Below are positions 2,965-50,232 of a stretch of 64,000 nt of DNA, piece by piece. The stretch is taken from assembly GCA_025055765.1 (NCBI GenBank), contig JANWWS010000036.1:1-64000 (forward strand). Reading direction: 5' to 3'. Under the pieces are notes generated by a model, which searched no databases, was not told the DNA's origin, and worked only from the letters and a program-made list of their open reading frames with translations. This DNA is from Leptospiraceae bacterium. GTDB lineage: Bacteria; Spirochaetota; Leptospiria; Turneriellales; Turneriellaceae. A program made the position numbers and the translations under genes. How positions within the stretch are numbered: the first letter of the stretch is position 1; every line of letters starts with the position of its first letter.

Positions 2965-3864
2965 ATGAATGGCGCGGTGAATCAGAATCAAAGAAAGGTT
3001 TCCTACCGTGCCCAAAAGGCAAGTCTTTGTCCTGTCTGTGGTTACAGTCACAATAAAGAAGAAATGCTGTCAGGTAGTGGGCGGCTTATTGCGGGTAAGC
3101 TTACGCCCGAACTACGTCGTCTCTATGAGGTAAGCAAAAAATGGGGAAGACTTAATCCCCTAGACTATGCCGTGCAGGTATGCCCTCGCTGCCTTTACGC
3201 CGCCTATCCCAAAGATTTTGAGCAGCTTACCCCCCAAGAGCAAGAGGCGCTTAAGTCAACCATTGGGCATCGTCAGAACCTCATGCAGGTACTTTTTGGC
3301 AAACTTGATTTTAATGAAAACCGCAATCTCTTGCTCGGCTGTGCTTCGTTTATCTTAGCTGTAGATTGCTACCATCTTCGCAAGGCCGAAGTCGCCCCCA
3401 CGGTAAAGAAAGCTATTTCTGCGATGCGTGCTGCTTGGTACCTTGATGACCTCTACAAAGAAGCTCCTTACCGACCCTATGACAAGGCGCGAGATTTTTA
3501 TTACATGGAAGCGGCGCGATATTACCGCCAGGTGCTCGAACTTATGGAAAAAGGGGGTGAGCCTGTGGACCAAGTGGCAGGCATGCTTGGCCCAGACCTA
3601 GATAATAACTGGGGCTACGATGGGGTGATTTACCTAAACTCTTACCTAACAAAAAAATACCTTGACCAAATGGCATCGGATACCAAGCAAAAATTAGCTC
3701 TCCTTGAGGCAAGCAAGCGCTATCTCTCAAAGCTTTATGGCACGGGAAAGGCAAGTAAAGCGAGGCCCTCGGTAATTGTTGACATGGCCAAGGATCTCTA
3801 CGAAGAAATAAGTGCCAAAATCGATGAGCTAACGGGCAATGTTGCCCCTGCAGCTGGCAGTTAA
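2965..3864 (+). CDS. DUF2225 family protein with paired CxxC motifs
   Basis: Cytoplasmic protein of 299 residues with no signal peptide. The N-terminal part holds two CxxC pairs, CPVCGY near residue 22 and CPRCLYA near residue 73, which would form a zinc-ribbon-like site. The rest is mostly helical. This arrangement is that of DUF2225 (UPF0087-like) proteins, common in Firmicutes and spirochaetes and of unknown function. It is divergent from the Fur-regulated receptor gene, so its promoter lies in the same 165-base gap. Followed 61 bases later by a small ORF and then the OmpA-like gene. Confidence 0.8.
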   Translation: MNGAVNQNQRKVSYRAQKASLCPVCGYSHNKEEMLSGSGRLIAGKLTPELRRLYEVSKKWGRLNPLDYAVQVCPRCLYAAYPKDFEQLTPQEQEALKSTIGHRQNLMQVLFGKLDFNENRNLLLGCASFILAVDCYHLRKAEVAPTVKKAISAMRAAWYLDDLYKEAPYRPYDKARDFYYMEAARYYRQVLELMEKGGEPVDQVAGMLGPDLDNNWGYDGVIYLNSYLTKKYLDQMASDTKQKLALLEASKRYLSKLYGTGKASKARPSVIVDMAKDLYEEISAKIDELTGNVAPAAGS

Positions 3865-3925
3865 ATGCTAAACAAAAAGTAGGTAGCTGCCGAAAAAAAA
3901 CTAAATCCATTCCAAGGAGGGAGAG

Positions 3926-4090
3926 ATGGAGATACGGCCAAATCCAGTGGTGAGTTACGAACTCTTATCCCTACCAATGAAAATAGCCCAACTGCAGCAT
4001 ATTCATAATGAGCGTTTGCTTACCTCAACTATAACAAACAAAGTCGAGGCTATTTTAGAGTCGCAGCGCCGATTAAATATCTTTGCCTAA
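3926..4090 (+). CDS. Small protein, 54 residues, strong ribosome-binding site
   Basis: A 54-codon frame starts with ATG at 3926, six bases after an unusually good ribosome-binding site (AAGGAGG, 3914-3920), and stops with TAA at 4088-4090. The product begins MEIRPNPVVSYELLSLPMKI and continues as a charged, probably helical segment ending in NIFA. It has no signal peptide, membrane segment or cysteine, and I recognise no family. It fits neatly between the DUF2225 gene and the OmpA-like gene on the same strand, 15 bases before the latter's ATG. The ribosome-binding site and spacing make a real gene likely, and it could be translationally linked to the OmpA-like gene, which lacks a clear site of its own. 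Confidence 0.65.
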   Translation: MEIRPNPVVSYELLSLPMKIAQLQHIHNERLLTSTITNKVEAILESQRRLNIFA

Positions 4091-4105
4091 GCCTAATTCT
4101 TGGGC

Positions 4106-6826
4106 ATGCACCATCGGCGCCGTTTTTTTACTCTAATCTGGCTGCTGTCGGTGCAGGTGGGCACTCTGCGATCTCATGTACGGGACCTCGCTGAGGGGAA
4201 CTTGTCGGCCATCACCACAGGACAGGGTGGGGTTCTGGGTGGTGAGCCAGCCTCCGCTGCGGCAAACCTTGCTGCGCTTGGTGCTTTCTTAAAGAGAACG
4301 AACTCAGCTCTTAACTTTGCCTGGGCACAAAACCTATTTGGCTTTCAAGGCTTCCTTTCTCTTCCCTCAAGCCTAGGCTCTCTCATGATCACCCCTCTTT
4401 ACATCTCGGCAAGTGAGTCACCCCCGCTAAAGCAATACCTTGCCTTAGGCCTGGGATATGCCAAAGAGGTAAGCGAAAACAGTGGACTTGGTTTTTTCTT
4501 CAAGCCGGCTTATGGCCGGGGCAGTGGTGGCTCGTTTTTTTCCTTGGGTATTGAGCCCTCCTTTTTTTATAACACGAGAAGTAACCTAGTCCTCTTTTCT
4601 GAGTTTGGGTTTTATGACCTTAGCTTTTATCTTGGGGGGCGAAATATTGCTCTAAATTTGGGTAGGAGCGAGATCGCTCCCCGCATGGCGCTTCACTTTG
4701 GGGTGCAAAGCTATATTTGGCGTAAGTCTCGCTTTGCTCTCGCAAGTTACGGGGAGACCGTGGGCATAAATCGCTTTGACAGCTTTCCTCTTCTAGGAGG
4801 GTTTGCGCTTTCTTACCATTTTTTCTTTTTCCGGGGTGGATTTATGCACCACCCGGAAAACAAGCTTTATCAAGGGCCAGTATTGGGTGGTGGTTTTGAC
4901 CTACCCTTAGCCCAGGGCAATATAGCCTTGCACTACAGCTACCTGCCGCCACTCAACTACCGACAAGAGCCTTTTCATTTCATAACCCTTTTGGGAAGTT
5001 GGGGCTATGTGGACCGAGAGCCCCCTCTTGTGAAAATTATCATAGATAATCCAGCCTTTTCACCAAATGGGGATGGCATAAAAGATACGGTGGTCTTTGA
5101 GATTGAGGTAAACGATGCAAGCCCCTTACATGCCTATCGCTTAGAAATCCGCAATAGTCGTGGGGAGCTTGTGCGTGCCTATGAAAGCGACCTAAGGCTT
5201 ATGGAAAAAAAGTTTTCGCTCGCGCGTTTTTTGGCAGAATTTTTTTCAAAAAGGGAATACTTAGTTGTGCCGCGTAAAATACGCTGGGATGGCACACCGG
5301 AGCGCATTAGCTTTGAAACTCTCTCCTCGGCAAAAGAAAAAACCACCTACCTTGGCGAGGGAGATTATTTTTATTCGTTTCAGGTAGAAGATATCCATGG
5401 CAATATTTCCCCACCCTCTCAAGGAAAGATTCGCCTTGATCTTACACCACCTGAGCTTGCGATTTTTAGTGAAGAAACCTCCTTTTCCCCTAACGGCGAT
5501 GGCATAAAAGAAGAGCTCCTTGTTAGTTTTAACATTAAGGGTCAGAGCGAGGATAGTATTTCCTTCTCCATATACAACAAACAAAAAAAGCGCATTTTGG
5601 AAAAAAAAGCAAAGCTCTCAAATTTTGAGGATAGTTTTCGCTGGGATGGGAGAGACGACGAGGCTCAGCCAGTTGAGGAGGGTATCTATGACCTAATTCT
5701 TCTCGGTGAAGACGAGGCAGGAAACCGCTCTGAGGCTCGTCTTACGGAAATTTCCCTTGTGCGCCGAAGAGATTTTGCTGAGCTACGCCTTTCGCAAAAT
5801 GGGCTTAGCCCCAACGGGGATGGTTTATTTGATAAAGTATCTATCTTCCCCCAATTTTCTTCTTTAAGTGATCTTGAAGAATGGGCACTCATTATTGCAA
5901 AAAAAAAGCCGGAGATGCAAAAGCCACCAGAAAATGTGGTTATTGAGTGGCGGGGTCTTGGGGCAAGGTCCCTGCCAGCTGAGGTTATTTGGGATGGCAA
6001 AAATGAAAGACAACGTGTGGTAGAAGATGGCATCTACTATGTACAACTTAGAGGCCGCTACAAATCTGGAAACCTAGCCGAGTCCCAAATATATCCTCTC
6101 GAGCTCGATACGAAACCCCCTGAGATATATGTGAGCACAGAGCATGACCTCTTCTCTCCCGATGGGGACGGGATACAAGAGGAACAAATTTTCTACCTTG
6201 ACATTAAAGATGAATCTCCTATTGAGGATTACCTGCTTCAGGTATACGAGGTGCAATTCAATGAAAAAGATGAGCGCCAAAGGTTTCTGTTCCGTACCTT
6301 TGCGGGTAAGAAAAACTTCCCCGAAAAGATTTATTGGGATGGCAAAGGAGATCAAGGAAGACTTGTTGAAAGTGCCACCTGGTATGAATACGAATTATCG
6401 GCGAGGGATGTTTGGGGAAACCAAGGTAAAAGTGGGGTAGGTCGCTTTGAAACCGACATATTAGTGTTAACGACAGAACGGGGCTTAAAAATCCGGCTGT
6501 CGGCTATAGAATTTGAAAGTGGCAGCGCTGAATTAAAGAAAAAGACTTTGCCGGTTTTAGAGAGGTTAGTAAAAATACTTGAGAGATACCCAAGATACAA
6601 AATTAAAATTGAAGGGCACACAGACGATGTGGGCCCAGAAGAATTTAATTTAAAGCTGTCTGAGGAAAGAGCACGCCGGGTGTTGAAGTATTTAGTCCAA
6701 AAAGGCTTGGATACCGATCGCATTACTTATCAAGGCATGGGGGAGCTCTATCCTCTCTTGCCCAATACCAATTGGTATAATCGCAGCCGTAACCGTCGGG
6801 TAGAAATCCTACTTTTTAAAAACTAA
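4106..6826 (+). CDS. Outer-membrane protein with four SPNGDG repeats and OmpA C-terminal domain
   Basis: About 906 residues: a signal peptide, an N-terminal beta-rich region (roughly 30-310) with the alternating pattern of an outer-membrane barrel, then four Ig-like modules. Each module opens with a SPNGDG or SPDGDG motif (near residues 317, 458, 565 and 682) and closes with a WDG...V..G.Y pattern like FlgD-type Ig domains. The last 115 residues are an OmpA peptidoglycan-binding domain (IEGHTDDVG, LSEERARRV, NRRVEI). The protein would therefore span from the outer membrane to the cell wall. The start was taken as ATG 4106; an in-frame TTG at 4100 is possible. The 3' end overlaps rsfS by 11 bp, tail to tail. 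Confidence 0.88.
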   Translation: MHHRRRFFTLIWLLSVQVGTLRSHVRDLAEGNLSAITTGQGGVLGGEPASAAANLAALGAFLKRTNSALNFAWAQNLFGFQGFLSLPSSLGSLMITPLYISASESPPLKQYLALGLGYAKEVSENSGLGFFFKPAYGRGSGGSFFSLGIEPSFFYNTRSNLVLFSEFGFYDLSFYLGGRNIALNLGRSEIAPRMALHFGVQSYIWRKSRFALASYGETVGINRFDSFPLLGGFALSYHFFFFRGGFMHHPENKLYQGPVLGGGFDLPLAQGNIALHYSYLPPLNYRQEPFHFITLLGSWGYVDREPPLVKIIIDNPAFSPNGDGIKDTVVFEIEVNDASPLHAYRLEIRNSRGELVRAYESDLRLMEKKFSLARFLAEFFSKREYLVVPRKIRWDGTPERISFETLSSAKEKTTYLGEGDYFYSFQVEDIHGNISPPSQGKIRLDLTPPELAIFSEETSFSPNGDGIKEELLVSFNIKGQSEDSISFSIYNKQKKRILEKKAKLSNFEDSFRWDGRDDEAQPVEEGIYDLILLGEDEAGNRSEARLTEISLVRRRDFAELRLSQNGLSPNGDGLFDKVSIFPQFSSLSDLEEWALIIAKKKPEMQKPPENVVIEWRGLGARSLPAEVIWDGKNERQRVVEDGIYYVQLRGRYKSGNLAESQIYPLELDTKPPEIYVSTEHDLFSPDGDGIQEEQIFYLDIKDESPIEDYLLQVYEVQFNEKDERQRFLFRTFAGKKNFPEKIYWDGKGDQGRLVESATWYEYELSARDVWGNQGKSGVGRFETDILVLTTERGLKIRLSAIEFESGSAELKKKTLPVLERLVKILERYPRYKIKIEGHTDDVGPEEFNLKLSEERARRVLKYLVQKGLDTDRITYQGMGELYPLLPNTNWYNRSRNRRVEILLFKN

Positions 6827-37770: not shown

Positions 37771-38736
37771 ATGGAAATTGTTACCGATCTAGATTCTTAC
37801 GATAAAGAAAAACATCGTCCATTAAGTCTCACGATGGGGGATTTTGACGGCTTACATCTTGCTCACGAAAGACTCATAAAAAAAACCATGCTGCTTGCAC
37901 GCCAAAAGGCATACCACTCAGCTATTTTAACTTTTGATCCCTCTCCGAAAACAGTTTTGGAAAAAATGCCTCGCAATGAACGCCTCTTTACCTTAGAAGA
38001 GAAAAAAAAAATTCTTTCGTTTTATTATCGCTTAGACCTAGCTTTTATTTTGCCCTTTACTCCTCGCTTTTCCCGGATGAGCGCAGCACGATACCTTAAA
38101 GATATTTTACTTACAAAAATGAATATGCGGCAACTAGTCATTGGCCATGATCACCATTTTGGCTACCGCAGACGGGGCAACTACAGCTACCTCTCTTTGG
38201 CAGCCAAACGCTATGGTTTTGAAGTTTATCAGGTAGAACAAATCACTTATAAAGGCGAGGTAGTCTCATCATCTCTCATACGTAGACTCTTGGATGAAGG
38301 GCTTGTGCATGAAGCCAATAGATTGCTTTGCGTGCCCTATTTTCTTTATGGCCAAGTAGAGTTAGGGCATAAGCTGGGCTATAGGCTAGGTTTTCCCACA
38401 GCTAATGTGGCTTATAAAGAGGAAAAAAAACTTCCTCAAAGAGGGGTTTATTTTGGAGCCGTCTTTTCAAAAAATAATCTTTATCGGGCTCTCATAAATA
38501 TTGGTACAAGGCCTACGGTGGATGGCAAAAGCACTACCGTTGAAGCTCATCTTTTGAATTTCTCGGGAAATCTCTATGGCGAGCATGTCTATGTTTTTTT
38601 TATCCGCAAGATTAGAGAGGAATATAGATTCCCTTCGCTTGAGGCATTATCTCAACAAATTCAAAAAGATATCGAGCAGAGCCAAGGCTATAGCATTTTG
38701 CCAGAAATCAGCTCTTTTTGTGAGCGGCTAAGATAA
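37771..38736 (+). CDS. ribF: Bifunctional riboflavin kinase/FAD synthetase RibF
   Basis: Turns riboflavin into FMN and then FAD. The 321 residues contain the N-terminal adenylyltransferase domain (GDFDGLHLAHERLI near 23, GHDHHFGYRRRGN near 124, SSLIRRLL) and the C-terminal kinase domain (GYRLGFPTANV, GVYFG, NIGTRPTV, VEAHLLNF). Both are complete. It stands alone on the plus strand, and its 3' end overlaps the convergent sensor gene by 29 bp. Confidence 0.96.
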   Translation: MEIVTDLDSYDKEKHRPLSLTMGDFDGLHLAHERLIKKTMLLARQKAYHSAILTFDPSPKTVLEKMPRNERLFTLEEKKKILSFYYRLDLAFILPFTPRFSRMSAARYLKDILLTKMNMRQLVIGHDHHFGYRRRGNYSYLSLAAKRYGFEVYQVEQITYKGEVVSSSLIRRLLDEGLVHEANRLLCVPYFLYGQVELGHKLGYRLGFPTANVAYKEEKKLPQRGVYFGAVFSKNNLYRALINIGTRPTVDGKSTTVEAHLLNFSGNLYGEHVYVFFIRKIREEYRFPSLEALSQQIQKDIEQSQGYSILPEISSFCERLR

Positions 38737-40102
38737 GTCCTGAGAAGCCAAAGCCTGGGTCTTGTTTTTGTTTTTCATGAACTAGCCGAGCAAAAGGTAG
38801 TACGATTTCACGTGCCGGGGGATGGCAGTTTTGATTTAAGTATTGGGTTAGCTCTTCTGCGTCTTGCTGTAAGAGTTCAAGGACATCTTGCGTGAGGATC
38901 AACATATCATTTGCTATGGGGAGGTTTTGCACATCATCCACAGAAAAGTTTGATGTAAAGAAACTGTCGCCTGCTTGAGCAAGCTGCCAGCCATTTTCTT
39001 GATGCATATATACAAAAAAGCTACCGCAGCGGTATATTTGATTCTTTTGGGGGGAAAGCTTGAGGTAAAGTAGTCCAGGCCCTAAATCTACGTGGTGGAA
39101 CATGGTCTGCCAAATACTATGGATTCTCTTTTCCGTGGGGATATCTGCCTCAAATAAGGATATAAATTTTTCTTGAAGACGATGTTTCCATAAGTTGGCT
39201 TCTAGATCATTGAGGTCAAAACGAGCCACGAGGATCTCGAGAGAGTCTGCTTTTTCGCGGGCATTGATAAAATTTTCTGCCTCTATCCCTGGGTTGCGTG
39301 GGAAAAGAGCAAGTTCAAAATTTTTCAACTTGGGGAAGGGTTTTTCGTACAGGACCTTTTGTAGATAACCTATGATTTCTTCGTTATCAGAACGCATAAC
39401 GCTCTCACTTTTTCCCACGTTATCGTTTTTGGCTGGCAATGTAAACTGTTTCTTGATGGTCAAGTAGAGATCCTCAAGCTCTGTATAGGGGAGCTTTACT
39501 TTTTCTTCAGGGAATTCCCCACTAAAGAGTTTTTTTAAGGACCAAAGAGCGTGGTTTATTTCAGAGGAGAGCACAAAGCCCACAAGAGCCATTAGGGCTC
39601 CTACTAGCAAAGCTAGGATGTAATAGACAAGTATAATCTTGCGAGCACTGTCAGACCCCAAGTAAAGCAGGATAATGGCGGGTATTTTTTTATTAGAGAC
39701 AATTAGAAAGGCATGGGGACCATATTCCAAGAGACTGCGCCCTTCCTTTTGCAAATATTTCTCTATACTAAGTTTCTCTATTTCTTCGTTCTTAAGCGGG
39801 AAAGCGGAGGAGAGCCGAGGGAAAAGCGCTTTTCCCTCGGGCGTTATGACTTGTATTTTGCCTTGCCCTTCTCGCAAAAGCCTTTGCAGCTCTTCTTCCC
39901 TTGAGCTGTGCAGGTATTTTTCCCATTTTTCTACGAGCTGGGCCGCTTGTTTCTCCAAAAGATTTCGACGCAGGTTTTGGGTTAGGTAATGAGCAAGAAA
40001 AGCAAAAAGTAAACCCAAGATAAGTCCAGCTACACCTAAAATAATAGCCAGGCGCAGTTGGAGGCTCCACTTTGCCATTCTGCGTCCTAAAATAGTACCC
40101 AC
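38708..40102 (-). CDS. Membrane sensor with HAMP-like region and degenerate SpoIIE-type domain
   Basis: 464 residues. Two transmembrane helices (about 12-35 and 155-180) frame a periplasmic sensor of roughly 120 residues. A HAMP-like stretch follows. The C-terminal 230 residues have the spacing of a SpoIIE/RsbU PP2C-type phosphatase (FELALFPRNP early, YRCGSFFVYMHQENGWQLAQAGDSFF and MLILTQDVLELL late), but the aspartates that bind metal (GDxxD and TDG) are not there. It may bind a partner and not dephosphorylate. GTG 40102 is chosen because GAGGAG sits five bases upstream inside the tatC end. Confidence 0.6.
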   Translation of the reverse strand: MGTILGRRMAKWSLQLRLAIILGVAGLILGLLFAFLAHYLTQNLRRNLLEKQAAQLVEKWEKYLHSSREEELQRLLREGQGKIQVITPEGKALFPRLSSAFPLKNEEIEKLSIEKYLQKEGRSLLEYGPHAFLIVSNKKIPAIILLYLGSDSARKIILVYYILALLVGALMALVGFVLSSEINHALWSLKKLFSGEFPEEKVKLPYTELEDLYLTIKKQFTLPAKNDNVGKSESVMRSDNEEIIGYLQKVLYEKPFPKLKNFELALFPRNPGIEAENFINAREKADSLEILVARFDLNDLEANLWKHRLQEKFISLFEADIPTEKRIHSIWQTMFHHVDLGPGLLYLKLSPQKNQIYRCGSFFVYMHQENGWQLAQAGDSFFTSNFSVDDVQNLPIANDMLILTQDVLELLQQDAEELTQYLNQNCHPPAREIVLPFARLVHEKQKQDPGFGFSGLILAAHKKS

Positions 40103-41370: not shown

Positions 41371-42342
41371 CTATTTTTCATTTTCAGTGCAGACGCTTCT
41401 AAAGTGAGCAAAAGGTTTACGTAGGTTTTCCACTCGTATTTTTTGTCCCTTGTAAAAGAAGGCCAAGGTAGGTTTACCCCCTACTTTTTCTACTTCACCA
41501 ATTAGCGAAACCCGAGGAGGAAGTGTGGAGGCCTTTTCTTTTTTGACTATAGCCACAACGGCCAGGTCTTCCCCGCCACTTAAAAGATAGGCGAGCCTTT
41601 GGTTTTCCTCAAGTTCTTTTAGAGGCTCTATAAGGGGCAGATAGGAGAGTTCTATTCTTAGATGAAGCTTATTTGCTAAAGCCAAATAAAAAAGGCTCTC
41701 ATAAAGGGAATCACTTTGGTCAAGAGCAGCCAAAGCATGGCTTTTTAGCCAATGAGCCTCTCGCGCCCATGCCCGTGGGCGTAAGTGCACATTTTTTATT
41801 TTTTGGGAAATCTTGCTTTTCGTTTGCAAAAGAGAAAGGACATAGTCTGAACCACCAACATAGCCTTCTAATGCCAAGATATCCCCCTTTTGTATGCTTT
41901 TATTTTGGCGGGCAATAAAGATCTCGCTTTCTCCTAAAACAGCAAGAGAAAAGTGATTTTTTTCACTACGCGCGGTATCCCCCCCAATTAAGGAAACCTG
42001 GTGTTCTTTGAGAATTTGCTTTAAAGCCCGCGCAAATTTTTTTACAAATATACCTTCCTTGGCAAGAGAAAGGCTTAAGCCCATATTGAGCAGGGCGTAA
42101 AGAGGTCTTCCACCTTTCACATAAATGTCGGAAAGACAGCGCTCTGTCAGCTTTATCGCCAAATCTTGTGGGGAAAAATAATCAAGAAGAAAATGAGTGC
42201 CCTCTATAAGTTGGTCTGTACTAAAAAGGAGGTAGCGACCCTTTTCCATTTCAAGATAGGCCGCATCATCCCCAGGGGGGCTTACCTGTCTGTGGTAAAC
42301 AGCTCCCCTAAAAAGCTCAATAATCTTCTCTTCACTGAGCAT
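41371..42342 (-). CDS. thiL: Thiamine-monophosphate kinase ThiL
   Basis: Phosphorylates thiamine monophosphate to the active cofactor. The 323 residues show family motifs: SPPGDDAAYL near 25, STDQLIEGTHF near 44, a GGDTARSE metal site near 122, and GGEDL near 266 (LSGGEDLAVV). The start ATG 42342 lies 11 bases inside the end of proC. The upstream frame to 42417 overlaps proC further and lacks homology, so it is not used. No TPP riboswitch was seen. Confidence 0.93.
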   Translation of the reverse strand: MLSEEKIIELFRGAVYHRQVSPPGDDAAYLEMEKGRYLLFSTDQLIEGTHFLLDYFSPQDLAIKLTERCLSDIYVKGGRPLYALLNMGLSLSLAKEGIFVKKFARALKQILKEHQVSLIGGDTARSEKNHFSLAVLGESEIFIARQNKSIQKGDILALEGYVGGSDYVLSLLQTKSKISQKIKNVHLRPRAWAREAHWLKSHALAALDQSDSLYESLFYLALANKLHLRIELSYLPLIEPLKELEENQRLAYLLSGGEDLAVVAIVKKEKASTLPPRVSLIGEVEKVGGKPTLAFFYKGQKIRVENLRKPFAHFRSVCTENEK

Positions 42343-43135
42343 TCTCTTGAAATAGGCGGGAAATTTCGCGAGAGCGTTCTTTGGCCTTGCGCAGAGCCTT
42401 ATAAATAGATCCCTCAAAGCCCTCGATCTTTAAGGTGGCCAGGGCTTCGGCAGTTGTTCCCCCTGGCGAAGAGATGGCCTCTATCAGCTCATGGTTGGTT
42501 TGGCCTGTTTTCTCAAGCAAGGCGAGAGACCCTTTTAAAGTCTGCCGGCTTAATTTGCGGGCGAGTTCTCGGCTGAGTCCCTCTCTCACCGCGGCATCTT
42601 CTAGGGTTTTTAAAAAAAGATAAACGTAGGCAGGACCGCTTCCTGATAGGGCAGTAACAGCATCCAGGAGAGATTCATTAGAAATAATTTCACAAAGTCC
42701 AGCGGAGGCAAAGAGAGTTCGTGCAAAACCAAGATCGCTTTCACGGCAAAGGTGATCAGGACATAGCACCGTAGCTCCCTCCCCCACCTTTAGGCATAGA
42801 TTAGGCATGGCACGTATATTCGGTCCTTTTACTTGACGATTCTCTTGTAGGTAGGCAAGAGAGATCCCCGCTGCCAGAGATACAACAAGCCGATTATCCG
42901 CAATCTGGGATAAAATCGTCCCTACATCCCCCGGTTTTACGGCTAAAATTAAAGGGTAGGGTTCCTTAAGTAGCTCCTCGATACTTTTTTTTTCATGGAA
43001 AAGAGCAGAAGATGACAAGGAAGCAGTCTGGCTAGATTTAATATCATAGCCGTATACCGTGTAACCCGCCGAGAGCGCAAAGCGTGCTAAGGACCCCCCC
43101 ATGTTCCCCAAACCAACTATGCAGAATTTTTGCAT
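42332..43135 (-). CDS. proC: Pyrroline-5-carboxylate reductase ProC
   Basis: Final step of proline synthesis: NAD(P)H-dependent reduction of pyrroline-5-carboxylate. The 267 residues begin with the Rossmann motif GLGNMGGSLAR. The catalytic C-terminal dimer domain holds VTALSGSGPAYVYLFLKTLEDAAVREGL and SPGGTTAEALATL, both diagnostic. It follows the AGCS-PSD fusion gene after one base and overlaps thiL, so three unrelated housekeeping functions share one transcript. Confidence 0.95.
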   Translation of the reverse strand: MQKFCIVGLGNMGGSLARFALSAGYTVYGYDIKSSQTASLSSSALFHEKKSIEELLKEPYPLILAVKPGDVGTILSQIADNRLVVSLAAGISLAYLQENRQVKGPNIRAMPNLCLKVGEGATVLCPDHLCRESDLGFARTLFASAGLCEIISNESLLDAVTALSGSGPAYVYLFLKTLEDAAVREGLSRELARKLSRQTLKGSLALLEKTGQTNHELIEAISSPGGTTAEALATLKIEGFEGSIYKALRKAKERSREISRLFQENAQ

Positions 43136-43136
43136 T

Positions 43137-45497
43137 TTAATCCTTTTTCTTAAAAAGAGCTATGGGCTCGCCGTAGTGTAATTTTTGTTTTGGCTCAAGA
43201 TCCAGGAGCTCCACACTATCTCGTTCAAATATTAATATCACCGTAGAGCCCATCTCAAAACGACCAATCTCGGCCCCCTTTTCAATAGCTATGGGGTTTT
43301 GATAGGTATGCTGGCGAGGTATGCGGATCCATTTGTTTGTGGAAAATTTTTCATCATAATTTACCCGAATTTTACCTACCGAGGTTGCCCCAATTTTTAC
43401 AAGGGCAAGAAGTCCTTTGCCCGTGTCTATAAAGGTAATAAGTCTTTCGTTTCGGGAAAAAAGTCTGTCAATGGTGTGCACAGCCAACATATTGACAGGA
43501 AAAAGCTTACCGGGCTGGTAGAAATAGCCAATGATTTTACCCGAGGTGGGGGCATGAATGCGGTGGTAGTCTTGGGGGGAGAGATAAATTGTGGCATAGC
43601 AACCATCTATGAATTTTTCTAGGTATTTCTTACTACCTAAAATTTCCTCGAGGGTACAGCTTATACCCTTACTTTGTAGAATCTGACCTTTTTCTAAAAT
43701 ACCTGCATGCAATAAACTACCATCTACAGGAGAGACAATAACATCAGCTCCGGGGGCTACTACCCGCGCTGTGTTTTTTAGGGCCCTTGTGAAAAAATTA
43801 TTTAAGGAGCGGTAATCTTTGAGTTCAAGCTCAGCTTCGCTTACATTAATTTTGTAGAGCCGAGAAAAGGCGAGCAATATAGGTATCATGATAAAGGCTG
43901 GCAAGCGCAGGCGAGCCAAGTAGCCAAAAATTTTAGAGAGGGTATTCTTGGGGAGAATTGTTAAGATAAGAATATAAATGCGTACCGCTAAATCATGGCG
44001 ATGGGGATATTTCTGAAAAAAAATCCGTGTTTCCTTTAAAACAACAGGAGTTAGGAAAAGCAGGGCCATGAGGTTGGGGAAGGCCATAAGCCCATTGGCG
44101 ATGTGGGAGAAATCCCAAATGAGTTTTGTCTCACCCAACATCCCTCCTAAAAGAATAGTAGCAATATAGATGGCTTGGTAGTAGCGGATTTTCTTGCCTA
44201 GACCCAAATATACCATGGCCCTATCTGTGTAGAAATACCAGCCAAAAATAGTAGAGATGGCAAAAAAAACAAGAGAAAGACTTACCACGAGGGCACCCAG
44301 TTGCCCGAAGTCATTTTTTAAAATTATATTTACTAAGACTCCCCGTAGATTTTCGGCATAGTTACCCCATTGCCAAGAAAGGGCTTGCCACAGTTGGCCG
44401 GTTGAGGCTTTCTCCACAAGGGGTAGAAGAGAGGGGGCAAGCTCTGTCTTTTTTAATATAGCCTCACTTAATATAGGCAAAGGGGACTTTTCAAGCCCTA
44501 CAATCACCGTGAGGCCTGTCAGCGTGCAGACAATGAGAGTATCTACAAATGGGCCAAGCATCGCCACTAATCCTTGCTTCACGGCAAATTCAGTACGGGC
44601 TGAGGCATCGGCGATAGGACCTGAACCAAGCCCAGCTTCATTGGAAAAAAGGGCGTGCTGTAGCCCGGTGCGCACCGTGACAAAAAACCAGCCGGTAAGA
44701 AACCCCGTAGCCATGGAGAGGGGCTTAAAAGCATAGTCAAAGACTAAAGCAAAGGAGCGCGCCAGTAATTTATGGTTTGCGATTAAGTAATAACCCACCG
44801 CCACGAGGTACATGATTGCCATGAAGGGTACTATAACTGCGGCGACCTGGCCAATACGGCGGATGCCACCCATGAGCACCATACTGGCTAAAATGGCCAC
44901 AAGGAGAGAGGTCTGCCATCGGGGGATGTTTAAAGAAGAGTGGAGGACCGTTGCTGCTGCATCGATTTGCGCCATATTGCCAATACCAAGGCCCGCTATG
45001 AGGACCAATACGGAAAAAAAGACAGCGAGCCGCCGCCAGCCGAGGCCTTTTTCCATATAATACATGGGTCCGCCCGCATAGCCATAGGATGTCTTTTCTC
45101 GGTAGCGTACCGCTAGAAGAGCCTCCGCATATTTGGTTGCCATGCCGACAATGGCGGAAACCCACATCCAGAAAAGAGCACCCGGCCCCCCGATTAGGAT
45201 AGCGCCTGCAACACCTACTATATTGCCAGTGCCTATGGTCGCAGCAAGCACCGTTGACAGAGATTGAAAGGGACTAATATCGCCCCTGGCCTGTGGTTCC
45301 TTACCGCGCTGGGAACTCTCTTCATGGGGGGAGAGACCAAGGGCAATGCGCCATCCAAAAAACAGGTAGCGCAGGGGTAGAAACCACAGCCGAAGAGTAA
45401 ACCATATCCCCGTAAACAATAAAAGCAAAACGAGGGGTGCCCCCCAGACATACTCGCGCACAGCGTGTGTGAAGTCACTTAAGGATTGAATTGACAC
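43137..45497 (-). CDS. Fusion: AGCS sodium/alanine symporter + phosphatidylserine decarboxylase
   Basis: A single 786-codon frame. Residues 1 to about 480 are a complete AGCS (DAACS) sodium:amino-acid symporter with about ten to eleven membrane helices (AATIGTGNIVGVAGAI, GGPMYYMEKGLG, FSNEAGLGSGPIADASA). Residues about 500-786 are a phosphatidylserine decarboxylase: SPVDGS (D592), YHRIHAP (H645/H648), and the autocleavage motif MGST with S751. Cleavage there would make the pyruvoyl cofactor and leave the small alpha subunit as a separate 36-residue chain. The decarboxylase makes phosphatidylethanolamine at the inner membrane and normally has its own membrane anchor; here the symporter supplies it. 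No stop or frameshift separates the halves. Start is GTG 45497 behind GGGGGGAT. Confidence 0.88.
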   Translation of the reverse strand: MSIQSLSDFTHAVREYVWGAPLVLLLLFTGIWFTLRLWFLPLRYLFFGWRIALGLSPHEESSQRGKEPQARGDISPFQSLSTVLAATIGTGNIVGVAGAILIGGPGALFWMWVSAIVGMATKYAEALLAVRYREKTSYGYAGGPMYYMEKGLGWRRLAVFFSVLVLIAGLGIGNMAQIDAAATVLHSSLNIPRWQTSLLVAILASMVLMGGIRRIGQVAAVIVPFMAIMYLVAVGYYLIANHKLLARSFALVFDYAFKPLSMATGFLTGWFFVTVRTGLQHALFSNEAGLGSGPIADASARTEFAVKQGLVAMLGPFVDTLIVCTLTGLTVIVGLEKSPLPILSEAILKKTELAPSLLPLVEKASTGQLWQALSWQWGNYAENLRGVLVNIILKNDFGQLGALVVSLSLVFFAISTIFGWYFYTDRAMVYLGLGKKIRYYQAIYIATILLGGMLGETKLIWDFSHIANGLMAFPNLMALLFLTPVVLKETRIFFQKYPHRHDLAVRIYILILTILPKNTLSKIFGYLARLRLPAFIMIPILLAFSRLYKINVSEAELELKDYRSLNNFFTRALKNTARVVAPGADVIVSPVDGSLLHAGILEKGQILQSKGISCTLEEILGSKKYLEKFIDGCYATIYLSPQDYHRIHAPTSGKIIGYFYQPGKLFPVNMLAVHTIDRLFSRNERLITFIDTGKGLLALVKIGATSVGKIRVNYDEKFSTNKWIRIPRQHTYQNPIAIEKGAEIGRFEMGSTVILIFERDSVELLDLEPKQKLHYGEPIALFKKKD

Positions 45498-46995: not shown

Positions 46996-47457
46996 ATGTA
47001 TGAGCTGCGCTACCTCCTGAGGCAGTTTTTAAATCATTGGCTCTTTTGGCCTCTTGTCTCGCTTCTTATGGTCATTGCCCTCTATATCTTTTTTTTCACG
47101 GAAAATGGCTTTTTTGCCTACCGTGAAGCATTAGCAGAAAAAGCGAGGCTTGAAAAAAGAATTGGCGAAATGCAACAGCAAAAAGAAGAACTCTTGCAAA
47201 AATTAAGTTTGTTACGCGATGATGAACGCGCTTTGAAAAATTTAAGCCGGGAATTTCTCATCTTTCCAGAGAAAGTAAGTCTCATAAAATTTAGAGAAAA
47301 AAAAGACGATCTTTCTGATAAAGAAGCAAAAACCAAGTCAGAAGAAGAGCCGAGCTATCTTTTCTGGCGAAAGGTTTATGTAGCTTTAACGACTCTCTTA
47401 CTTTTGTTTATTGCCTATAGGAGTTTTAAAAGACATGAGGGCCCTCCTTACCCATGA
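46996..47457 (+). CDS. DivIC/FtsB-like septum protein with extra C-terminal membrane helix
   Basis: 153 residues. One membrane helix (about 17-34) is followed by a coiled-coil of roughly 35 residues (EKARLEKRIGEMQQQKEELLQ) and FLIFPEK, the arrangement of FtsB/DivIC cell-division proteins, often encoded after eno. A second hydrophobic helix near 125-143 is unusual for the family. It begins at the base after the eno stop. Its stop overlaps the next gene by 4 bp. Confidence 0.75.
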   Translation: MYELRYLLRQFLNHWLFWPLVSLLMVIALYIFFFTENGFFAYREALAEKARLEKRIGEMQQQKEELLQKLSLLRDDERALKNLSREFLIFPEKVSLIKFREKKDDLSDKEAKTKSEEEPSYLFWRKVYVALTTLLLLFIAYRSFKRHEGPPYP

Positions 47458-48668
47458 AGCTAGTTGCTATTGGTGGCGTTGTTTTTTTAACAGCTCTCTG
47501 GGCTAGTACTCTTCGCCTACAACTGCAGTCATTAGACCCTCGTCAAAGAGAAAGTGCGCTAAGACAACTCATGCAAAATCCCACACAAGAAAATGTGGAG
47601 ATACTACAGGAGCACCTTTTGCAGGAACGAAACAAAAAAGTCCTAAGAAGTCTATTGGAGTTTTTCCGTCAAAGGAAAGCACGTGCGGATTTTTTTTATT
47701 TGCTTGATTTTATTGGTATGGCAGAAGACCCCCTGCTTGCTCTTGAGGCTGCCAAAATTTTAAAAGAAATCCATCTAGAAAGAGCAAGAAAAGAGTTACT
47801 TGATCTTAGTAGTCGTTCTTTGTTTTATTTTTACTTATATCTTAAAACCTTTGCGCAAAACACTTCCCAAGAGTGGGAGCAAGTCAAAAAAGCCCTTGAA
47901 AGTGAAGCTTTAAAGCTTGCCATTCTTTCTCTGCCGGAGCAAAAAAGAGACGAAATTATAGAGGCTATCTTACCGTTTGAACCCTATGACCTACTATTGC
48001 CGACAGAAGGGGCAGCCGATATCATATTGCGCACGCTTTTATTGGAAAAAAAGGGTCTTGAGGTTGATCCATCCTGGTTTAATGCCACCCTTGACAAAGA
48101 TGTACCGCACTTTGTTCGCAAGCTTTTCTTCGAAAAAAGGGGCAAGTATTTTTTCGACTCTTTTATGAAGGAGGAGGTAGATACTCTCTTGGGTGACGAA
48201 GTATTTCGCTGGTACCTATGGCAAGATCGTCGCTTCCCTGATGAATACTATACTAAGGCTATTCGTTATGCGCAAAGCTCCCAGGAGGTCCTCTTTCTCT
48301 TACTTTATTTTCCTTATCTTTCGCAAAGACATAAAGAGATTTTTTGCGAAAAAAAGTTAGCGAAAAATTTACCGCTATCTTGGCACAGGCGCCATAAATT
48401 CTTATGCCAGGGCGAGTTTTCCTATGGCGATTTCTCTAACGTAAGGCTTTATATTAGAAATCTACCAAGAGAAAATACAGCTCAAGCCTACCTTATGCTA
48501 AGATCGGGGGACGCAAGGTATCGAATGAAGGCTTATCTATCTACCCCTGACGAGGATGTGGCTCAAAAACGCCTACTTTACAAAGCACTTTGGTTGCAAG
48601 AAAGAGATCCTCTCTTACGTTTTTATTTAGAGATAAAGTTACAAGGGGCAAGTCAAGATGAACCATAA
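47454..48668 (+). CDS. Exported helical-repeat protein, function unknown
   Basis: 404 residues with a signal peptide (about 1-18). Residues 25-130 have HEAT-like pairs (DPRQRESALRQLMQ, NVEILQEHLLQ, LALEAAKILKEIHLERARKEL). The rest is also helical and rich in Phe, Leu and Lys, without a family I can name. It is tightly linked to its neighbours (4-bp overlap before, 11-bp overlap after), so it probably works with the DivIC-like protein and the TPR/propeller protein in the envelope. Confidence 0.65.
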   Translation: MKLVAIGGVVFLTALWASTLRLQLQSLDPRQRESALRQLMQNPTQENVEILQEHLLQERNKKVLRSLLEFFRQRKARADFFYLLDFIGMAEDPLLALEAAKILKEIHLERARKELLDLSSRSLFYFYLYLKTFAQNTSQEWEQVKKALESEALKLAILSLPEQKRDEIIEAILPFEPYDLLLPTEGAADIILRTLLLEKKGLEVDPSWFNATLDKDVPHFVRKLFFEKRGKYFFDSFMKEEVDTLLGDEVFRWYLWQDRRFPDEYYTKAIRYAQSSQEVLFLLLYFPYLSQRHKEIFCEKKLAKNLPLSWHRRHKFLCQGEFSYGDFSNVRLYIRNLPRENTAQAYLMLRSGDARYRMKAYLSTPDEDVAQKRLLYKALWLQERDPLLRFYLEIKLQGASQDEP

Positions 48669-50232
48669 AAAAGCTGGCATTTTTTTTATTTTTGTTGTCT
48701 TAGCCAGGCAAGTGCTTGTTGCTCAAATCTATGAAGAAAATAAGGCGCTAGAGCATTATGAACGAGGCCTTAAGTATATGCAAGAAAAAAAGTATAAAGA
48801 GGCAGAAGAGTCCTTGCGTCAATTCTTATCGGAAGAACAATTTGCCTATGAAGTGCGAGATGCTTTGTTTCAATTAGCGGAGAGTCTTCGGCTGCAAAAA
48901 AAGTACCTTGACGCCATTAGTTTTTACAATATCTTGCGTTATCGCTACCCGCTAAATCGCTATCAGCATGAGATTAAGTTTCGACTAGGTCAGTGTTACT
49001 ACTATGCTGACAATTTGCCAAAAGCCCGCTATTTTTTTAGCGAATTTCTTAAAAAAGAAGCAACGCCCCCCCAAAAACTTCATGCCTACCTCTACCTTGG
49101 GGAAATTGAAGAAAAAAGTAGTGCTTTTCAAGATGCTCTTTCTTATTATGAAAAAGCCGCCTTGCTCTACGAGAAGGATGCCAAGCTTTTGCCCCAGGAA
49201 AAAGCTTCTCTCTTATATTATCGACTCTCAAAACTTTTTTGGGAAAAAAGTAAGAACCGCGAAGCTGCTTATCATTATTTAAGCAAAGCATTTCGCTTGG
49301 GACTAGTTTATAATGATGAGGCTCGTTTTCTCTTGCGCAAAATTACCTTTGAGCACATAGACAAAGCCCAGGGTTTAATTGACAATTCCATTATGGACAT
49401 TAAACCAGATGGTGATGATATTTACATTGCCACAGCAGGTGGTGGGCTAATGCGCTATGTTCGCTCTTTGGGAACTCTTGAAAAGATCAATTTGCCTTCA
49501 GATCAGCTTCGCTCTCTCCATATAGAAAGGGACAAAATTTACATTTTAAGTTTTGATGGGATTTTTGTGTATAACAAAAAGACAAGCCAGGTTCAATCTT
49601 TGCGAACTCAAGCTAATGAGGAAATACAATTGGCACAAAAAGTTATTAAAGATGACCGCCATCTCTATTTTACCACACTTACGAAAGGTCTTATAAAACA
49701 AGACATATTTACTAATAAAATGGAAATTTTGGGAGCCAATTCTTTTGTAGGCAGTGATCAAGTATATGCGTTGGCTGCCGACCACCGGTATTTGGCCATT
49801 GGCACATTAGATTATGGGGTGGTTATACAAGATAAAAAAAATAACAAGGTCTACCGTCTTTCACGGGAGTCAAAGCATCTTAAGGGTAACAACATAAAGA
49901 CACTCCTCATAGATGGCCGCTTTTTATGGATAGGGGTGCACAATGTGGGTATTTACAGGTATGATTTAGAAAGCGAAAAAATAACTTTTTTTGATTGGCA
50001 TCTACCTTTTCCCTCTGCAATGGCAAAAAGGGAACATGAAATATGGATTGGTACGATGGGTCGAGGTATCGTTATGTATGACCAAAAAAACGAGCGCCTA
50101 GAGCGGTTTACGGGAATTGATGGTCTGGCCAGCAACGATATCCAATGCCTTCAGGTGGAAGGCAATTATATATGGATTGGCTATCTTGATCAGGGAATTG
50201 ATCTCATCTATCGACCTCTCGAGTCTTTTTGA
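48658..50232 (+). CDS. Exported TPR plus beta-propeller protein
   Basis: 524 residues: signal peptide (about 1-22), five or so tetratricopeptide repeats (about 28-230: ALEHYERGLKYMQEKKYKEA, DALSYYEKAALLYEK), then a C-terminal beta-propeller of short blades (IYIATAGGGLMRY, LWIGVHNVGIYRYD, IWIGTMGRGIVMYD, IWIGYLDQGIDLIY) like the sensor propellers of hybrid two-component proteins. No kinase follows, so it is a free periplasmic scaffold or sensor. It ends 29 bp inside the convergent sirtuin gene. Confidence 0.78.
   Translation: MNHKKAGIFFIFVVLARQVLVAQIYEENKALEHYERGLKYMQEKKYKEAEESLRQFLSEEQFAYEVRDALFQLAESLRLQKKYLDAISFYNILRYRYPLNRYQHEIKFRLGQCYYYADNLPKARYFFSEFLKKEATPPQKLHAYLYLGEIEEKSSAFQDALSYYEKAALLYEKDAKLLPQEKASLLYYRLSKLFWEKSKNREAAYHYLSKAFRLGLVYNDEARFLLRKITFEHIDKAQGLIDNSIMDIKPDGDDIYIATAGGGLMRYVRSLGTLEKINLPSDQLRSLHIERDKIYILSFDGIFVYNKKTSQVQSLRTQANEEIQLAQKVIKDDRHLYFTTLTKGLIKQDIFTNKMEILGANSFVGSDQVYALAADHRYLAIGTLDYGVVIQDKKNNKVYRLSRESKHLKGNNIKTLLIDGRFLWIGVHNVGIYRYDLESEKITFFDWHLPFPSAMAKREHEIWIGTMGRGIVMYDQKNERLERFTGIDGLASNDIQCLQVEGNYIWIGYLDQGIDLIYRPLESF

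Follow-up and report, generated by a model that had tools for sequence, protein, structure and literature searches.

This locus raises the question of why a phosphatidylserine decarboxylase (PSD) should be carried on an amino acid transporter. PSD, the last enzyme of phosphatidylethanolamine (PE) synthesis, is normally a small self-anchored protein. In the window, meaning the whole stretch of 64,000 nucleotides analyzed, it forms the C-terminal half of a longer protein that begins with an AGCS (sodium:alanine symporter) domain, referred to below as the window copy. We favor, with a probability of roughly 0.62, one ancestral fusion in which PSD is the conserved job and the AGCS half serves mainly as a membrane anchor or platform, with the window clade perhaps still transporting.

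The window copy is one continuous frame in which both domains are recognized by curated profiles. As claimed in an earlier note on this DNA, AGCS and PSD share an uninterrupted 786-codon frame, with zero internal stops between its GTG start and its stop (Table 1). Pfam assigns Na_Ala_symp (PF01235) to residues 67-496 with 393.5 bits (cut-off 24, E 1.7e-117) and PS_Dcarbxylase (PF02666) to residues 565-780 with 189 bits (cut-off 22, E 9e-56), and the NCBIfam models TIGR00835 (agcS) and TIGR00163 (PS_decarb) score 400 and 212 bits against cut-offs of 273 and 112, respectively. NF003038 and similar narrower equivalog PSD models remain below their cut-offs, the NF003038 match beginning at residue 517. 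Two curated profile matches rule out a chance open frame.

Table 1. Positions of the fused gene, its domains and motifs, its conserved neighbors and two related loci. Coordinates refer to the window unless a genome is named.
Feature	Position	Strand	Basis
Fused AGCS-PSD CDS, 786 aa, GTG start	43137..45497	-	open frame and full-length homologues
AGCS (sodium:alanine symporter) domain, residues 67-496	44010..45299	-	PF01235, AlphaFold/6CSE match
G89-T-G-N-I93, conserved AGCS motif (MmAgcS 77-81)	45219..45233	-	
Q177 (MmAgcS Q170), invariant in 88 standalone AGCS	44967..44969	-	
S415-T-I-F-G-W420 (MmAgcS 365-370)	44238..44255	-	
Junction and predicted PSD N-terminal helices, residues 502-548	43854..43994	-	model, NF003038 start
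PSD catalytic domain, residues 565-780	43158..43805	-	PF02666 189 bits
D592 (E. coli D90 equivalent)	43722..43724	-	invariant in 37 fusions
H645-R-I-H648 (E. coli H144, H147 equivalents)	43554..43565	-	both His invariant, 37 fusions
M749-G-S751-T, predicted self-cleavage site; pyruvoyl would form at S751	43242..43253	-	invariant in 37 fusions
proC-like gene, starts one base after the stop of the fusion	42332..43135	-	P5CR_dimer
thiL-like (AIRS) gene, next in conserved order	41371..42417	-	PF00586, synteny
T. parva DSM 21527 fused protein	G005:C1, about 3,154,723-3,157,089	-	
G036 split fused gene	L151 (G036:C1:142000-152000), 3718-5941		

The genomic context points to a role of the fused gene in PE synthesis. 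It is the only PF01235 gene and the only PF02666 gene of the source genome, which also encodes a PssA-type phosphatidylserine synthase (G000:C49:461716). With this synthase present and no second PSD, the fused gene should provide the PE-forming step of the CDP-diacylglycerol route, an established pathway. Synteny shows the proC-like neighbor to be conserved in most of the f1, f3 and f4 genomes inspected, and no glycine riboswitch or other Rfam element was found upstream of the fused gene. Other frames of the window include a 464-aa ORF without a Pfam match that looks membrane-bound and adjoins tatC/tatA (38708-40102, minus strand), a 404-aa ORF without a Pfam match near the fused gene (47454-48668, plus strand) and a 524-aa protein in which TPR repeats precede two-component-regulator propeller repeats and which has no kinase part (48658-50232, plus strand).

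The fusion is shared across the class Leptospiria. PSD is present in 45 of the 48 Leptospiria genomes examined; 40 of these 45 encode it in a single long fused frame (621-826 aa), two in a fused but interrupted gene and three (G014, G016 and G027) as a standalone PSD without an AGCS half. All 37 of the long frames that were extracted and aligned are AGCS-type plus PSD, including two (G001 and G012) that lie near contig ends and lack the start of the AGCS half. Both interrupted copies keep the fused order: the G031 gene is broken at contig ends and the G036 gene is split by a frameshift, genuine or due to sequencing error, within its eroded AGCS half into frames of 313 and 444 aa. The best full-length homologues spanning the join are 41-63% identical to the window copy and come from independent assemblies. 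Two normally separate families in one frame might suggest adjacent genes joined by an assembly or frame error, but with the same join recurring in 40 independently assembled genomes, among them the closed 4,384,015 bp chromosome of Turneriella parva, such an artefact has practically no chance of being the explanation. The guess that related spirochaetes share the join therefore holds class-wide in Leptospiria (40 of 45 PSD-bearing genomes), and AGCS and PSD are not always separate genes in relatives.

Outside the class, no fused PSD was found among 94 sampled PSD-bearing genomes from the rest of the phylum, where the longest of the PSD frames listed (G047, 618 aa) is the only one of fused length and has no second Pfam domain. 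The best 80 loci matching the whole protein are all standalone AGCS whose ORFs contain no PSD, in a search using patterns from the window sequence alone that could miss distant fusions. No PSD relatives were found in viral contigs. The architecture is catalogued implicitly, in that Pfam calls both domains of the T. parva fusion. A literature search without most subscription journals found no published description of the fusion or of the erosion of its AGCS half; the parts are known and the fusion is class-wide, and the erosion of one part is apparently undescribed.

The PSD half retains every catalytic element. The residue numbers D592, H645/H648 and S751 given earlier are exact, and these residues and the MGST motif are identical in 37 of 37 aligned fusions, while PSD-half identity to the window copy is about 40-76% across Leptospiria. 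Solved relatives exist for the first half (AgcS, 6CSE) and the second half (E. coli PSD, 6L06/7CNW). Compared with E. coli PSD (PDB 6L06/6L07, 7CNW-7CNZ; TIGR00163), the fusion has equivalents of D90, H144, H147 and S254, a G-S self-cleavage motif and, predicted at low to moderate confidence, helices before the catalytic domain. It differs in having MGST in place of LGST and a polytopic transporter domain ahead of PSD, whereas the E. coli enzyme is monotopic. In E. coli PSD the cut falls between Gly253 and Ser254 of LGST, and three N-terminal amphipathic helices anchor it to the cytoplasmic leaflet (PMC7952604). By analogy, self-cleavage at G750-S751 would yield a chain of about 750 residues, made of AGCS and the PSD beta part, and a pyruvoyl alpha chain of 36 residues, and this analogy likewise supports the proposal that cleavage before S751 would keep the AGCS domain attached to the larger subunit (beta). 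Both chains together would decarboxylate phosphatidylserine to PE. In genus g3 (G002/G006; L006, L005) the PSD half is unusually diverged (branch 1.4) and the AGCS half is close to that of the window copy, a pattern opposite to the trend elsewhere; proC is not a neighbor there.

The AGCS half of the window copy resembles a complete transporter in fold and score. An AlphaFold model, built from an alignment of 42 standalone AGCS sequences only, has pLDDT values mostly above 90 in this half, and its best PDB match by Foldseek is 6CSE AgcS (E 3.5e-24, TM-score 0.88 by target). Because of the alignment supplied, the PSD half is without a usable model, it and its placement having pLDDT below 50; helices at residues 502-514, 517-529 and 534-548, ahead of the PSD domain, are predicted with pLDDT of about 50-70. 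Methanococcus maripaludis AgcS (MmAgcS; PDB 6CSE/6CSF, TC 2.A.25, TIGR00835) matches across the whole transporter half (phmmer E 3e-89), and the window copy shares its LeuT-type fold and keeps the equivalents of GTGNI, Q170, T366 and W370. Unlike MmAgcS, the window copy carries a C-terminal PSD, and G257, G261 and G374 are replaced. These three glycines are invariant in 88 standalone AGCS and are replaced even in the least eroded fusions, so that the description of this half as a full AGCS transporter stands by score and fold but not at these positions. A 4-residue length difference from MmAgcS at window residues 268-278 was dismissed as a signal, being common in standalone AGCS.

Among the fused relatives the AGCS half is eroded to very different degrees, and most have lost the conserved site. 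Conserved columns were defined from the 88 standalone AGCS (41 positions), which themselves keep 35-41 in a leave-one-out control. The window copy and G004 keep 36, at the lower edge of this range, G002, G003, G006 and G017 keep 38, and G015 keeps 31; the counts are 22-23 in f5 fusions, 15 in T. parva and 7-19 in f6 fusions. Where these f6 and f4 genomes also carry a standalone AGCS, that protein retains 42-46 of 46 conserved positions, and erosion is thus specific to the fused copy. PF01235 scores fall from 395-437 bits in the window clade to 161-194 in f5 and 87-119 in g6/g2, and in most of f6 the domain scores below 52 bits or is undetected. AGCS-half identity to the window copy is 48-54% in G002, G003, G004, G006 and G017, 39% in G015 and about 25% in Turneriella-type genomes, and in f6 BLAST aligns part of the half or nothing. 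Six fusions (window, G002, G003, G004, G006 and G017) have GTGNI intact; the motif is GVGSI in G015, has become NAAVL/NAAIL in Turneriella-type genomes and is unrecognizable in f5 and f6; the position of MmAgcS Q170 is proline in f5 fusions. The T. parva fusion has the architecture and the proC-thiL neighbors of the window copy and a PSD half 64% identical to it, but its AGCS half is only 26% identical and has NAAIL for GTGNI. Profile-profile alignment recovers the AGCS ancestry of the eroded halves (E 6e-61 for f5, 1e-40 for f6 and 1e-29 for g6), matching over part of the length only in the most divergent f6 members.

The eroded halves nevertheless remain constrained rather than decaying freely, as indicated by pairwise dN/dS values of 0.05-0.28 for the AGCS-like half; these exceed the corresponding PSD-half values (0.03-0.08 for pairs in which they can be computed) and lie far below 1, all figures being rough with dS near saturation in several pairs. 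Because the PSD residues never vary and the AGCS residues do, PSD is the likely selected function common to all fusions. An AGCS half that is constrained yet can be lost suggests a helpful but dispensable role.

The earlier note proposed that fusing the two links PE synthesis to a transporter. As a general reason this is not supported, given that most fused relatives have lost conserved AGCS residues and three class members have PSD without the AGCS half. A specific form of the idea has the AGCS half taking up an amino acid, such as the serine used by phosphatidylserine synthase, in a manner coupled to or co-localized with PE synthesis. It draws on the window clade, which keeps GTGNI, Q177, T416, W420 and the SNEAGLGS motif and lies inside the standalone range of conserved positions, and on the fused gene being the sole PF01235 gene of its genome. 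We consider such coupling unlikely: the key residues are gone in most fused relatives, three otherwise invariant glycines are replaced even in the window copy, and AGCS family members vary in substrate (PMC12795558). The source genome has serA- and serB-type genes, so serine import is not obligatory and serine auxotrophy was rejected as a reason for the transporter.

The eroded AGCS half is under stronger constraint than simple anchoring would demand, so this half could have gained a role other than anchoring. In addition, an extra anchor is not obviously required, since PSD of the E. coli type already binds the membrane through three amphipathic helices of its own (PMC7952604) and helices are predicted at the corresponding place in the fusion. 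The membrane half could have been repurposed for lipid handling, feeding phosphatidylserine to the PSD site or moving PE from it. Such a role would suit a multi-helix LeuT-fold relative that is under purifying selection after losing its solute site and remains fused to a lipid enzyme in 42 of the 45 PSD-bearing genomes. Against it, the membrane half is missing from three class members, and we regard lipid handling as somewhat less probable still than coupled import. A broader view, tentative but possible, is that a transporter captured by a lipid enzyme became, throughout the class, a LeuT-fold module that no longer transports and has a new job under constraint, either PSD positioning or handling of phosphatidylserine and PE at the active site, with living intermediates ranging from the near-intact window copy through G015, which is eroded in part, to halves that are fully eroded or have been deleted.

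The fused proteins probably trace to one ancient AGCS-PSD fusion. In a tree built from the AGCS halves of 20 fusions together with 30 standalone AGCS, the fused set forms one side of a branch (support 96/100, 97% of bootstrap trees), and in this unrooted tree the window clade joins nearest the standalone side. A recent replacement, in which the window clade gained a fresh AGCS half and the eroded halves represent the original state, would be compatible with the AGCS halves of G002/G006 being 48% identical to the window copy and their PSD halves 45-46%, figures that indicate different rates of evolution in the two halves. Such a swap is very improbable, being disfavored by the position of all fused halves on one side of the 96/100 branch, by non-glycine residues at MmAgcS 257 and 261 common to window-type, G015, f5 and g6 sequences and by the graded intermediate G015 (31 of 41). 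The order and number of erosions and losses are uncertain because the tree is unrooted and contains long branches. The simplest interpretation is that erosion occurred independently more than once, as window-type and eroded copies both occur within f1 and G017 and G015 both lie within f4. The standalone PSD of f3 directly precedes proC and thiL, an arrangement shared by the fused gene of f1/f4, and nests with the fused PSDs of f1/f4 (support 91/96), and the AGCS half was therefore most likely lost in f3. The standalone PSD of G027 (L150, 698-1549) lies on a very long branch; its genome, an f6 member of 2.2 Mb, likewise has no PF01235 gene, and this is apparently a second, independent loss of the AGCS half.

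According to the anchor or platform reading that we prefer, an AGCS transporter of LeuT fold would have been joined to the N-terminus of the only PSD of the lineage in the ancestor of the class Leptospiria. The AGCS fold would insert the polypeptide into the membrane and place PSD at its cytoplasmic face. The AGCS half would then have become mainly an anchor or platform, its transport site probably lost in most lineages and the half itself deleted in a few. The window clade, the least eroded, may still perform sodium-coupled transport of small amino acids and may be bifunctional.

For annotation, the fused protein should not be taken to indicate that Leptospiria transport alanine, since Turneriella-type copies are called Na_Ala_symp yet are without the conserved site. 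The graded transporter halves represent a natural experiment in which a fold loses transport yet stays useful, and their gradation predicts which copies transport. In PE synthesis, a core membrane pathway, the whole class carries the last enzyme on a former sodium symporter.
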